Below, one piece after another: positions 48,887 through 51,584 of a stretch of 64,000 bases of DNA. The notes under the pieces were generated by a model. It ran no database searches, was not told where the DNA came from, and saw nothing but the letters and a program-made list of their open reading frames with translations. Origin of the DNA: Serinicoccus marinus DSM 15273 (GTDB lineage Bacteria; Actinomycetota; Actinomycetes; Actinomycetales; Dermatophilaceae); assembly GCF_008386315.1 (NCBI RefSeq), contig NZ_CP043808.1, forward strand, positions 2,976,001 to 3,040,000, written 5' to 3'. The translations under genes and the position numbers were made by a program. Each line of letters starts with the position of its first letter. The first letter of the stretch is position 1.

Positions 48887-49342
48887 GTGCTCTCCCCCGG
48901 TCCCGGTCGCCTCCTCCGCCTGCTCGCCGACGCCGAGGCGGTGACCTGGGCGCTGCTGCTGGTGGGCATGGCGTTGAAGTACCTCACCGGCACCACCGAC
49001 CTGGGCGTGAGCATCGCCGGTCCCGTCCACGGCTTCGTCTTCCTCGCCTACTGCGTCGTCGTGGTCATCGTCGGCCTCGACCAGCGCTGGGGCGCCCGGC
49101 GCATCCTGCTGGGCCTGGCGAGCGCCGTGCCGCCCTTCGTGACGATCCCCTTCGAGCGCTCGGTGCGCCGCCGCGGCCTGGCCGGCGAGCGCTGGCGGCT
49201 GCGCGAGGGCACCGGGCACACCGCGGTCGAGCGGGCACTCGCAGCGGTGCTGCGCCGGCCGCTGCCCTCCGCGCTGGTGGCGCTGCTGTTCGTGGCAGGC
49301 GTCTTCAGCGCGCTGCTCGCGGTCGGACCTCCCGTCGGCTGA
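48887..49342 (+). CDS. DUF3817 membrane protein
   Basis: 151-aa integral membrane protein with three to four helices: AVTWALLLVGMALKYLTG, GPVHGFVFLAYCVVVVIVGL, LLGLASAVPPFVTIPFERSV and a last helix ALVALLFVAGVFSALLAVG. The DUF3817 signature (helix, KYLTG, HG-FLAY) is clear; function unknown. GTG start with only AGGA directly before it, so translation may be leaderless. Its final 24 bases, including most of the stop codon, occur again at 50630-50653, on the far side of the nuclease cassette. Confidence 0.8.
   Translation: MLSPGPGRLLRLLADAEAVTWALLLVGMALKYLTGTTDLGVSIAGPVHGFVFLAYCVVVVIVGLDQRWGARRILLGLASAVPPFVTIPFERSVRRRGLAGERWRLREGTGHTAVERALAAVLRRPLPSALVALLFVAGVFSALLAVGPPVG
49318..49341. repeat. 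24-bp direct repeat flanking the nuclease cassette, left
   Basis: Identical to 50630-50653, same orientation. This copy is the last codons of the DUF3817 gene (coding AVGPPVG). The pair looks like a duplicated target or an attachment site. Confidence 0.75.
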
Positions 49343-49420
49343 CCGGCTGGCGCGGCCAACGCTCCACCGCGACCATCGGCCACCCAGCCACCCAGCCACC
49401 CAGCCATCCCGCACCCGGCA

Positions 49421-49506
49421 ACCGCGGTGGGTATGAGTAGCCATCGCGACACCGAGCCACCGCGGTGGGTGTTCGTTGCCATAGCGACACAGAGCCACCG
49501 CGGTGG
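49421..49506. repeat. 38-bp-period palindrome array, left of the nuclease gene
   Basis: The ten-base ACCGCGGTGG (core ACCGCGGT is a perfect palindrome) occurs at 49421, 49459 and 49497, exactly 38 bp apart. The 28 bp between are partly conserved (GCCAT, then GCGACAC, then GAGCC). It is preceded by a short ACCCAGCC tandem run (49380-49404). No protein is encoded here. Confidence 0.75.
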
Positions 49507-49562
49507 TTGGGCCTGTGGATGAGATCGGCGCGGGCACGGGCCGAGCGGTCACGCTGAGACTC

Positions 49563-50504
49563 ATGAAGACGGTGATCTCGCGCCGCCAGGCGCTCGCGCA
49601 GGGCATGACGACCGGGCAGATCCGGCACAAGCTCGATCGTGGTGACTGGCAGCAGCCATTCAGGGCGACCTACGTCCAGCACACGGGGCAGGTCACGTGG
49701 CTCGAACGCGTCGAGGCGGCGGTATCGGCTCGGGGTCCCGGTGCCGTGGTCAGTCTCCGTTGCGCTCTGCACCTGTGGGGCCTCACCCGGGAGCAGCCGG
49801 CGATCATCACGTTGGCCGAGCATTTCGACACCCACCGCAGCGGCGCGCTCGAGGGCGTCAGGGTCCGACGACGTCGTCGGCTCGCCACCGCTCGGCGCTA
49901 CGGGCTGCCGGTCAACACGCTGCCACAGACCATCATCGACGTCATCGCCCTTCGTCCCAGGGACAGCGACGACATGATGGCGCTCATCACCCGAGGAGTG
50001 TCCTCACGCAAGGTCACGGTGCCCGAGCTGCGCGACGAGCTCACGCACCATCCGCGACACCCGGCGCGCGAGGTCCTCACGGAGACCCTGACCGCCGCCG
50101 AGGAAGGCCTGGGCAGCGCCGCCGAGGCACGGTATGCCCGCGATGTCGAGGCGGCGCACGCCCTCCCCCGGATGCAACGCCAGGATCCGATCAGCCGTGC
50201 CGACGGCGGCACCCTGGCCCGCACGATGGACTTCCGCGACCGCGCGCGCGGGCTGGGCGTCGAGATCGACGGCAACCTCTGGCACCGGGAGAAGCAGCTC
50301 GCCGACCGGCGACGCGACCGTGAAGCAGCAGGAGCCGGTGGTGTGGTGCTCCGCGCCGGATGGGTGGAGGTGGTGGTCGACCCGTGTCGGCTGGCCGCCG
50401 ATGTCGGGGCTGCCCAGCAGGCACGCGGCTGGACGGGTATGCCCCGACCCTGCGGGCACACCTGCGCCATCGCGACCGACCCCCGCTGGGCAAGCGCCGG
50501 CTGA
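49563..50504 (+). CDS. AbiEi-like N-terminal domain fused to a PD-(D/E)XK-type nuclease domain
   Basis: 313-aa protein. The N-terminal half resembles AbiEi antitoxin-type winged-helix proteins (ISRRQALAQGMTTGQIRHKL, WQQPFRATYVQHTG, VSLRCALHLWGL). The C-terminal part resembles DUF559/Vsr-like endonucleases: MDFRD, then LGVEIDGNLWHREKQLADRR with the E-x-D pair and RRRDREAAGAGG. Active-site residues look plausible, but a lysine is not obvious. It stands alone in a cassette bracketed by palindrome arrays and 24-bp repeats. Its last codons (CAIATD) resemble the inter-palindrome sequence GCCATCGCGAC. Possible roles: self-mobilising nuclease, defence or DNA repair; none is proven. Confidence 0.65.
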   Translation: MKTVISRRQALAQGMTTGQIRHKLDRGDWQQPFRATYVQHTGQVTWLERVEAAVSARGPGAVVSLRCALHLWGLTREQPAIITLAEHFDTHRSGALEGVRVRRRRRLATARRYGLPVNTLPQTIIDVIALRPRDSDDMMALITRGVSSRKVTVPELRDELTHHPRHPAREVLTETLTAAEEGLGSAAEARYARDVEAAHALPRMQRQDPISRADGGTLARTMDFRDRARGLGVEIDGNLWHREKQLADRRRDREAAGAGGVVLRAGWVEVVVDPCRLAADVGAAQQARGWTGMPRPCGHTCAIATDPRWASAG

Positions 50505-50525
50505 GACCGAGCGAACTGGTCGACG

Positions 50526-50597
50526 ACCGCGGTGGGTTGGTGTAGCCGGGGCAACGAGAAGCCACCGCGGTCCAGGAGCGGCGGTGCTCACCGCGGT
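50526..50597. repeat. 38-bp-period palindrome array, right of the nuclease gene
   Basis: The core ACCGCGGT occurs at 50526 and 50564 (38 bp apart, as in the left array) and again at 50590 (26 bp). Between the first two, GCC and AGCC positions of the left array are kept. It begins 22 bp after the nuclease stop codon. Confidence 0.7.
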
Positions 50598-50629
50598 CGG
50601 AAAGTGTCGCCCGGGCAACACAGGCCGCG

Positions 50630-50653
50630 CGCGGTCGGACCTCCCGTCGGCTG
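50630..50653. repeat. 24-bp direct repeat flanking the nuclease cassette, right
   Basis: Exact repeat of 49318-49341, here noncoding, 34 bp before the end of the esterase gene. The distance between the copies is 1,312 bp. Confidence 0.75.
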
Positions 50654-50687
50654 CCGCGCGCGGTCGGCCCCGGGGGCGCGGGCCGCC

Positions 50688-51431
50688 TCAGCAGAAGCGC
50701 GGCAGGTGGTGCTCCAGCTGCTTGCGCCACCACGGCCAGTCGTGGGCGCTGTCGTGGCCCCACAGGTCGAACTCGTGCGGGATGCCCTTGTCGGCCAGGA
50801 TCCCCGCCATCCGGTGCGCCCCCGGCAGCGACTGGGTCGGGTGCACCTCGAAGGCGCCCTGACCGGCGACCAGCAGGATGTTGGCGTGCTCGCGCACCCA
50901 CTGCAGGTGGTCGCCCTCCATGCCCGCGACATACGCCGTGGGGTTGACGAAGTAGGTCGCCTCGCCCAGCTCGCCCCACCCGTGCCACGAGCTGGGGTCG
51001 AAGTTGCCGGACAGGCTGATGCCGACGCCGAAGACGTCGGGCCGCTTCAGCGCGAAGTTGACCGCGTGGAAGCCGCCCATGCTGGCCCCGACGGTCACGA
51101 TGCGGTCGTGCCCCGGTGAGTCCTCGTCGACGAGCGGCACCACCGTGTCCAGGATCCAGCGCTCGTATGCCCCGTGCCGGCGCGCCCGCTCCTCGGTCGG
51201 CAGGCTGTTGTCGCTCCAGGTCAGGTGGTCGAAGGAGTCGACCGCGTAGAGCTTGATCCGGCCGTCGGCCAGCAGCGGGGCGACGGCGTCGAGCATCCCG
51301 TTGTTCTCGAAGTCCCACGCCCGGCCGGCCTCGGAGGGGAAGACCAGCACCGGCCGGCCCCAGTGGCCGTAGCGGATGACCGCGCCCCGTCCGACGCCCT
51401 CGGTGTCGAGATCGATCTGCTCGCGCTCCAT
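50688..51431 (-). CDS. Esterase-family alpha/beta hydrolase
   Basis: 247-aa protein of the esterase-D-like alpha/beta-hydrolase family. The nucleophile elbow is GASMGGFHAVNF, the catalytic His lies in GHDSAHDWPWW, and a likely Asp is in the preceding strand. I start at ATG giving MEREQIDLDTEG; the longer open frame upstream is not supported. Substrate unknown. It was probably the direct neighbour of the ATP-grasp gene before the nuclease cassette and DUF3817 gene came between them (inference); a ligase and an esterase acting on the same ester or amide would make sense. Confidence 0.75.
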   Translation of the reverse strand: MEREQIDLDTEGVGRGAVIRYGHWGRPVLVFPSEAGRAWDFENNGMLDAVAPLLADGRIKLYAVDSFDHLTWSDNSLPTEERARRHGAYERWILDTVVPLVDEDSPGHDRIVTVGASMGGFHAVNFALKRPDVFGVGISLSGNFDPSSWHGWGELGEATYFVNPTAYVAGMEGDHLQWVREHANILLVAGQGAFEVHPTQSLPGAHRMAGILADKGIPHEFDLWGHDSAHDWPWWRKQLEHHLPRFC

Positions 51432-51584
51432 GGCTCTCCTCACCCGGCTCGACCGCCGGCCGACCCGACGTGGGGGCAAGCCTGCCACACCTCATACATC
51501 GCGCACCGGCGGTTCACAGCAGGCACATAGCCCCGGGCGGCGGAATGGACTCACACCACCGGACACCACCCCCGAGGAGCACCC

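Follow-up and report, generated by a model that had tools for sequence, protein, structure and literature searches.

We analysed a 64-kb window of the Serinicoccus marinus DSM 15273 genome (G000, 3.42 Mb; the window is G000:C1:2976001-3040000, and positions below are counted within it). At issue is a gene for an AbiEi-Vsr/EDxHD-like nuclease fusion, which together with the palindrome arrays on its two sides forms what we call the cassette, and the relation of such genes to palindromic elements found beside them and elsewhere in genomes. A sequence-only reading of the window had described a lone gene, arrays of ACCGCGGT on both sides with an exact 38-bp spacing, and identical 24-bp direct repeats around the whole; all of these were found. 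ACCGCGGT starts at positions 49421, 49459, 49497, 50526 and 50564, and a sixth time at 50590. The features of the locus are as follows.

48887..49342, plus strand: DUF3817 gene, a neighbour (GTG start inferred from sequence)
49318..49341, plus strand: left copy of the 24-bp direct repeat, the 3′ end of the DUF3817 gene (exact match)
49347..50675, no strand: segment missing from the sister genome G012 (GGC overlap at the junction)
49421..49466, no strand: element copy 1, left array, 46-bp imperfect palindrome (pair count and fold test)
49459..49504, no strand: element copy 2, left array, 46-bp imperfect palindrome (8-bp end palindrome in common with copy 1; fold z -6.5)
49563..50504, plus strand: AbiEi-Vsr/EDxHD-like nuclease fusion gene, 313 aa (ATG at 49563, TGA ending at 50504)
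50526..50571, no strand: element copy 3, right array, 46-bp imperfect palindrome (pair count and fold test)
50590..50635, no strand: element copy 4, degenerate 46-bp element (two mismatches; single-strand fold no better than shuffles)
50630..50653, plus strand: right copy of the 24-bp direct repeat (exact match; missing from the orthologous S. kebangsaanensis cassette)
50688..51488, minus strand: putative esterase gene, a neighbour convergent to the nuclease gene (from the annotation of the window's neighbours)

With up to two mismatches allowed, four 38-bp-spaced ACCGCGGT-N30-ACCGCGGT pairs were counted in the window, against 0.15 expected, and none of 100 shuffles reached four. Exact ACCGCGGT pairs at 38 bp number six in the whole genome. 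As single strands, three of the four element copies folded better than shuffles (z -3.1, -6.5 and -4.0), and the fourth (50586-50639) did not (z +0.4).

Residues 1-180 of the window protein match the AbiEi antitoxin fold strongly, and residues 184-290 match the Vsr/EDxHD homing-type nuclease fold. The AbiEi models of PADLOC also match the N-terminal half. The protein class proposed from sequence, AbiEi-like joined to PD-(D/E)XK/Vsr-like, is therefore right by the fold matches of both halves. Across 39 sequences D223 and H241 are invariant, and E188, E234, D236, R251 and D252 nearly so. The Pfam matches among these members were to AbiEi_4 (22), DUF559 (9), MTES_1575 (5), AbiEi_1 (5) and AbiEi_3_N (2), with no transposase family among them; homologue-specific fold libraries listed no other enzyme family clearly, which does not exclude another family. 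Among the 7994 candidates scored, those with the most words in common with the query, the nearest named homologue was that of Serinicoccus kebangsaanensis (81% identical), and the ratio of nonsynonymous to synonymous substitution rates (dN/dS) between the window gene and this orthologue is 0.18. At the window locus, to which this observation is confined, no AbiEii nucleotidyltransferase toxin gene is adjacent, the neighbours being the DUF3817 and esterase genes.

Matches to the family were common at the thresholds used, being present in 26 of 31 genomes of the genus, 101 of 119 of the order and 147 of 197 of the class, with up to 15 matches per genome. The flanks of eight genus homologues were printed, and each seemingly carries its own palindrome on both sides, with a sequence that differs by lineage. 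Flanks were then scored by the best local alignment, in either orientation, between the 350 bp upstream and the 350 bp downstream of a gene, with a cut-off score of 40. As controls we used 278 open reading frames (ORFs), namely 136 of 600-1500 bp from 20 stretches for the order group and 142 for the class set. In a first run, made without L046 (N run), L077 (short) and L064 (partial), 46 of 57 homologues scored at least 40, against 2 of 136 controls. A stricter run, from which five further short loci were left out (L059, L060, L061, L062 and L067), gave a shared flank element in 45 of 52 order loci against the same 2/136, and in 17 of 23 loci of a new class set against 0 of its own 142 controls (L263, L266, L269, L271 and L278 were omitted, as were L256 and L257, repeats of order-set loci). 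Controls with a gap of at least 80 bp on both sides shared no flank element at all (0/30 for the order, 0/39 for the class). A third set of 20 loci, hand-picked from the weaker order-genome matches with one per genome, gave 17/20, and pooling it with the stricter run gave 79 of 95 loci against 2 of 278 controls. A fourth set, of loci fetched for other purposes (L127, at a contig edge, was left out), gave 11/17, or 10/13 without loci already counted.

Most often the shared element is a hairpin, its stem ∼20-25 bp long and its loop short, and many members have a single hairpin per side. Hairpin scores of at least 24 on both flanks were obtained for 22/52 order and 13/23 class homologues, against 2/136 and 1/142 controls, or 2/30 (order) and 0/39 (class) when the controls were matched for gaps. 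The window locus itself scored 53 through its 24-bp repeat and 43 through its palindromes once the repeat was masked. Recurrence of arrays or hairpins around homologues at unrelated sites, a point raised by the sequence-only reading, was thus borne out in most homologues tested.

Two other family matches lie in the same genome as the window. A distant paralogue (29% identity) at G000:C1:2766400-2767197 (L007, L123) has its own, different set of repeats (CACCCTTGTGC and related sequences) on either side, with a score of 37, just below the cut-off. The match at G000:C1:3365697-3366476 (L121) scored 53; inverted copies of a 40-bp hairpin-like element that begins with CGACCGTGGAAGTG enclose it.

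Element sequences were compared in 55 of the 75 stricter-run loci (score of at least 45, minus L258 and L282), which gave 1485 pairs. Elements were alike in 26 of the 89 pairs with a protein identity of at least 60% and in only 1 of the 1396 pairs below it. For control segments 1.3 kb away, the same pairs gave 4/89 and 0/1396. These alignments indicate that the element sequence tracks the lineage of its own gene.

Copies away from the gene were sought with two covariance models, R1 and R2, whose matches were counted on both strands among the 150 candidates scored per genome. R1 was built from 13 elements (ten gene-flank and three dispersed, from G000 and G013) of the window, of the S. kebangsaanensis locus L037 and of three dispersed sites in the window's own genome; R2 was built from 19 elements beside the clade-2 genes of its five genomes. 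At an expectation value (E) of 0.01, R1 matched 12 of 31 genus genomes, that is 8 of the 9 with a clade-1 gene (at least 56% identity) and 4 of the 22 without; at E 1e-4 the counts were 5/9 and 1/22. Eleven R1 sites away from the gene were fetched in G013 and three in G000. R2 matched all five genomes with a clade-2 gene, each at no fewer than nine listed sites away from it; at E 1e-3 it also matched a single site in G000 and another in G012, and nothing in the other 24 genomes. Fisher p values were 5e-4 for R1 and 1e-4 for R2.

A third test concerned CGTTGCCTCCC-N-GGGAGGCAACG hairpins in genus g19. Thirteen were found in G141 (two beside a gene) and eight in G128 (one beside a gene), and none in the six other genomes of the test; family matches at 1e-10 in these six numbered none in G042, G058 and G073, and 3, 1 and 1 in G102, G115 and G088. 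All 21 hairpins are 43 nt long. In the inner stem, which the search pattern left free, both sides had changed in 22 cells, where shuffles gave 7.1 ± 3.3 (0/500 as high) and sliding the pairing gave at most 7; the paired-cell count and the covariation score were also beyond all shuffles. Taken together, the three tests suggest that dispersed intergenic copies follow their cognate gene, with exceptions that are given below.

Two observations were made on the dispersed sites. In both G013 (L203) and G012 (L209), which are different species, a ACCGCGGT array lies inside a long ORF and is possibly an in-frame insertion. Further, a second dispersed tandem repeat, with a 32-bp period and the core CCAnnnGCGRCGCYCGGTGGG (L237, L245, L249 and L232 in G004 and G019; L198 in G013), occupies some of the intergenic spots that bear ACCGCGGT arrays in sister species; no cognate gene for it was seen among the loci fetched.

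Change over time was followed at twelve R1 sites looked up in four genomes, of which ten were comparable (L196 and L202 had no comparison). The state was unreadable, the flank not being found, in G012 at S205 and in G004 and G019 at S207. At S205, beside the end of a neighbouring gene, G013 carries a 255-bp array where 0 bp separate the flanks in G000 and G004, and 5 bp in G019; no target duplication was seen there. At S197, S204, S207 and S210 the number of units differs or remnants are kept, and at S206 and S208 the element is missing in some genomes, with unrelated sequence in its place. Whole cassettes were compared in the class genus g81. Six of 16 pairs, overlapping in their members (L260/L280, L265/L267 and L272/L277 are examples), share only ∼1.0-1.1 kb, from hairpin to hairpin, at unrelated loci; eight share flanks on one or both sides. 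At the one locus shared by L260 and L277 the flanks are the same (86.6 and 83.5% identical) and the cassette is inverted (76.6%), with the breakpoints at the hairpins. The two hairpins within each of L260, L265 and L277 are 92-98% alike, against 31-79% between these cassettes. A similar tendency is seen in L090-L094 and L091-L096, but not in L270-L272, L041-L043, L086-L087 and L048-L051. In the five syntenic clade-2 cassettes L048-L052 the flanks are ∼89-95% identical and the gene with its arrays 82-86% in most pairs, which suggests faster evolution of the cassette than of the sequence around it.

We consider it probable that gene and elements form a repeat system like that of the repetitive extragenic palindromic (REP) sequences, with a different enzyme, in which a DNA-binding half of the AbiEi type is fused to a nuclease half of the Vsr/EDxHD homing type. 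The comparisons that argue for this are the gene-specific repeats shared by both flanks, the dispersal, the tracking of element and gene, the co-variation of the stem, one case of presence and absence, and one inversion. From them we infer that the protein may bind its dyad, cut it and drive its spread. The two inverted repeats to which AbiEi binds are 23 bp long and lie 3 bp from each other (PMC7319586, cited, like the other papers below, from excerpts), so a dyad of 43-49 bp is as long as an AbiEi pair would be expected to occupy; the target on which I-Bth0305I dimerises is nearly 60 bp long (PMC3943268). The protein would most likely bind its cognate dyad as a dimer, with one AbiEi half per arm of ∼21-23 nt, and the gene would be autoregulated through the upstream copy. 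The nuclease half could cut or nick at the dyads, perhaps when they are extruded as hairpins, and the element would then be copied or recombined as the cut is repaired. By these steps the number of array units might grow and shrink in 38-bp steps, elements might spread to gaps between genes, and the hairpin-gene-hairpin cassette might invert or move. On a broader proposal our judgement is evenly balanced, namely that REP-like elements arose independently in Actinomycetes when AbiEi-type operator dyads became self-spreading hairpins through fusion of their binding protein to a homing-type nuclease. The result would be class-wide homing hairpin cassettes in which enzymes and hairpins co-evolve, paired hairpins tend to stay alike within a cassette, and cassettes invert or move between hairpins.

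Several results weigh against the proposed repeat system. No shared element at score 40 was found in 16 of the 95 pooled loci and 6 of the 17 fourth-set loci; the five short loci left out of the stricter run had given 1/5 at this score in the first run; and L313, L328 and L330 carry long inverted or array-like repeats instead of simple hairpins. Gene and element also come apart: G012 has many strong R1 elements, and G004, G011 and G022 have weak ones, without the gene, while G001 has a clade-1 gene and no R1 match. The R1 matches listed for G030 adjoin the gene only, and for G018 and G029 a single weak site each is listed elsewhere. The models were built from gene-flank copies, so those matches are partly by construction, and the Fisher values overstate independence, because the genomes are related and the R2 carriers are close relatives. 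Of the five covariation measures in g19, two were unremarkable (pairs changed, 4 against 2.7; pair types, 10 against 8.6; 72 and 66 of 500 shuffles as high). All three dispersed sites of G000 are common to relatives, with no sign there of current activity. Clean presence and absence was seen at one of ten compared sites only (S205), and no target duplication or motif was found.

The alternative that survives best, though we hold it unlikely, is autoregulation only, in which the dyads are AbiEi-type operators, the dispersed copies form a regulon or spread by other means, and the nuclease half has an unrelated role in phage defence or repair. The promoters of AbiEi and Rv2827c contain 23-bp inverted repeats to which these proteins themselves bind (PMC7319586), and the dyads of the present family have the same size; upstream of the window gene lie paired arms similar in size to the AbiEi inverted repeats, and the N-terminal half has the AbiEi fold and PADLOC matches described above. 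However, copies are found on both sides of the gene, not upstream alone, and operators would not be expected to form multi-unit arrays or to go with cassette inversion. The placement of the dispersed copies also argues against it. The 24 fetched sites (L214 and L215 were left out, and four pairs of sites each represent one place in two species) comprised 10 in convergent gaps, 8 in tandem gaps, none in divergent gaps and 6 inside a crudely called ORF, against 37 convergent, 103 tandem and 46 divergent gaps in a background of 186 gaps of at least 40 bp. Divergent gaps thus held 0 of 18 sites against 46 of 186 (p 0.008).

Much less probable is a reading in which the hairpins serve as RNA terminators or processing sites at the 3′ ends of genes and are functionally unconnected with the protein. 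The occurrence of hairpins between convergent genes and the co-variation of the stem would fit a transcribed structure, and REPs have been thought to act in this way (PMC3733652), but this leaves unexplained the match of element and lineage, the dispersal that tracks the gene, and the control genes without shared flanks.

An insertion-sequence-like cassette that inserts with a 24-bp duplication of the target gene's 3′ end, which we hold very improbable, would account for the exact 24-bp repeats, for the empty site in G012 and for cassette-only homology at different loci in another genus. The sequence-only reading took the repeat as a target duplication marking the ends of the unit, and the same locus in relatives speaks against this. 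In S. kebangsaanensis (L037) the orthologue occupies the same position and the arrays on its two sides are larger, running mostly in steps of 38 bp with intervening steps of 27 bp; the right-hand 24-bp copy is absent there, its best match scoring 19 against 36 for the left-hand counterpart. In the sister genome G012 the flanks are 96 and 98% identical and the segment from ∼49347 to ∼50675 is missing. The predicted empty site with a single 24-bp copy was found there, with the copy diverged, but the junctions fall 6 and 22 bp beyond the two repeats. Given the missing right copy and these junctions, the repeat is not a conserved boundary and was rejected as a general one. Since strong elements are still present at five sites in G012, the cassette may have been lost there and the empty site need not be ancestral; we regard loss in G012 as at least as likely as gain in G000. 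The cassette is also absent at the locus in G004, G019, G003, G028, G027 and G020. Within the 64-kb window the 24-bp repeat has no further copy at up to three mismatches; no sensitive whole-genome search for it was made. A recent duplicate in G059 (L119 and L120, contig C54) was set aside as uninformative: the whole 12.5-kb compared stretch is present twice in opposite orientation at 100% identity, which is either a real duplication or an assembly effect.

Least credible is a type III toxin-antitoxin-like (ToxIN-like) pair, in which RNA from the upstream tandem repeats would neutralise a nuclease toxin: 38-nt tandem repeats, which the toxI repeat resembles in length, do lie upstream of a nuclease-like gene, but they also lie on the other side and dispersed, many members have a single hairpin per side, and the folds are AbiEi and Vsr.

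The preferred reading, a REP-like repeat system with its own enzyme, is close in layout to REPs and their REP-associated tyrosine transposases (RAYTs), as had been suggested from the sequence with the remark that the enzyme family differs; the flank, dispersal and fold tests agree with that suggestion. In both systems palindromes lie on both sides of the gene, each lineage having its own palindrome sequence (PMC2817692, PMC3733652); copies are dispersed outside genes, often clustered, between convergent or tandem genes; and the palindromes are maintained by compensatory change. In the present family palindromes do lie on both sides of the gene, not every shared element being a simple one, and dispersed extragenic cognate copies were found for three element families, with 6 of the 24 sites in crudely called ORFs and no dispersed copy listed for G001 and G030. 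The enzyme sets the two systems apart, RAYTs being tyrosine (Y1/HUH) transposases of the IS200/IS605 type and the present enzyme an AbiEi-Vsr/EDxHD fusion. The present dyads are roughly symmetric, mostly of 43-60 bp, and no GTAG or GTGG head was seen by eye in alignments A3, A4 and A6. The hosts also differ: RAYTs are proposed to have arisen after the branching of the gammaproteobacteria (PMC2817692), and the present hosts are Actinomycetes. The system thus resembles REP/RAYT in layout without being a member, since the enzyme and the head do not correspond.

Other known systems match in part. AbiEi and Rv2827c, of type IV toxin-antitoxin systems (PMC7319586), differ in that the present gene has a fused nuclease half, dyads on both sides and dispersed, and, at the window locus, no adjacent nucleotidyltransferase toxin gene. 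I-Bth0305I and Vsr (EDxHD; PMC3943268) differ in that the present protein has an AbiEi half and a link to repeats; neither intron nor intein was seen around the window gene. CGTC-tagged REPs, apparently without a dedicated transposase (PMC3733652), are likewise REP-like palindromes without a RAYT, but the present family has a cognate gene; the words Actinobacteria, Micrococc- and Streptomyces do not occur in the text of that paper. Keyword searches by title and start of abstract, with most subscription papers outside their reach, returned no paper linking AbiEi-DUF559 proteins to palindromic repeats.

A gene between its own dispersed palindromes is already known from RAYTs, so the layout itself is not new. 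If the enzyme drives the spread, its origin would be an independent one of the REP-like kind. RAYTs are the only dedicated REP partner enzymes in the excerpts consulted, and a second, unrelated partner would mean that nuclease-tied hairpin repeats arose more than once. It would also point to a role for the very many genes whose sole annotation is AbiEi-domain or DUF559 protein, and REP-like spread could be tested with a new nuclease and defined substrates. The many paired protein and dyad sequences may serve the study of changing DNA recognition.

Two points concern the surroundings of the cassette. An Rfam match to sR34 (E 0.46, below the gathering score) that overlaps the left 24-bp repeat was taken as chance. 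The third neighbour in the window has a sub-threshold ATP-grasp-type Pfam match only, and the cassette had been said to split an ATP-grasp/esterase pair. That the two genes belong side by side agrees with their adjacency in several distant genomes of the genus, but in the window's group it is the DUF3817 gene, and not the cassette alone, that separates them.
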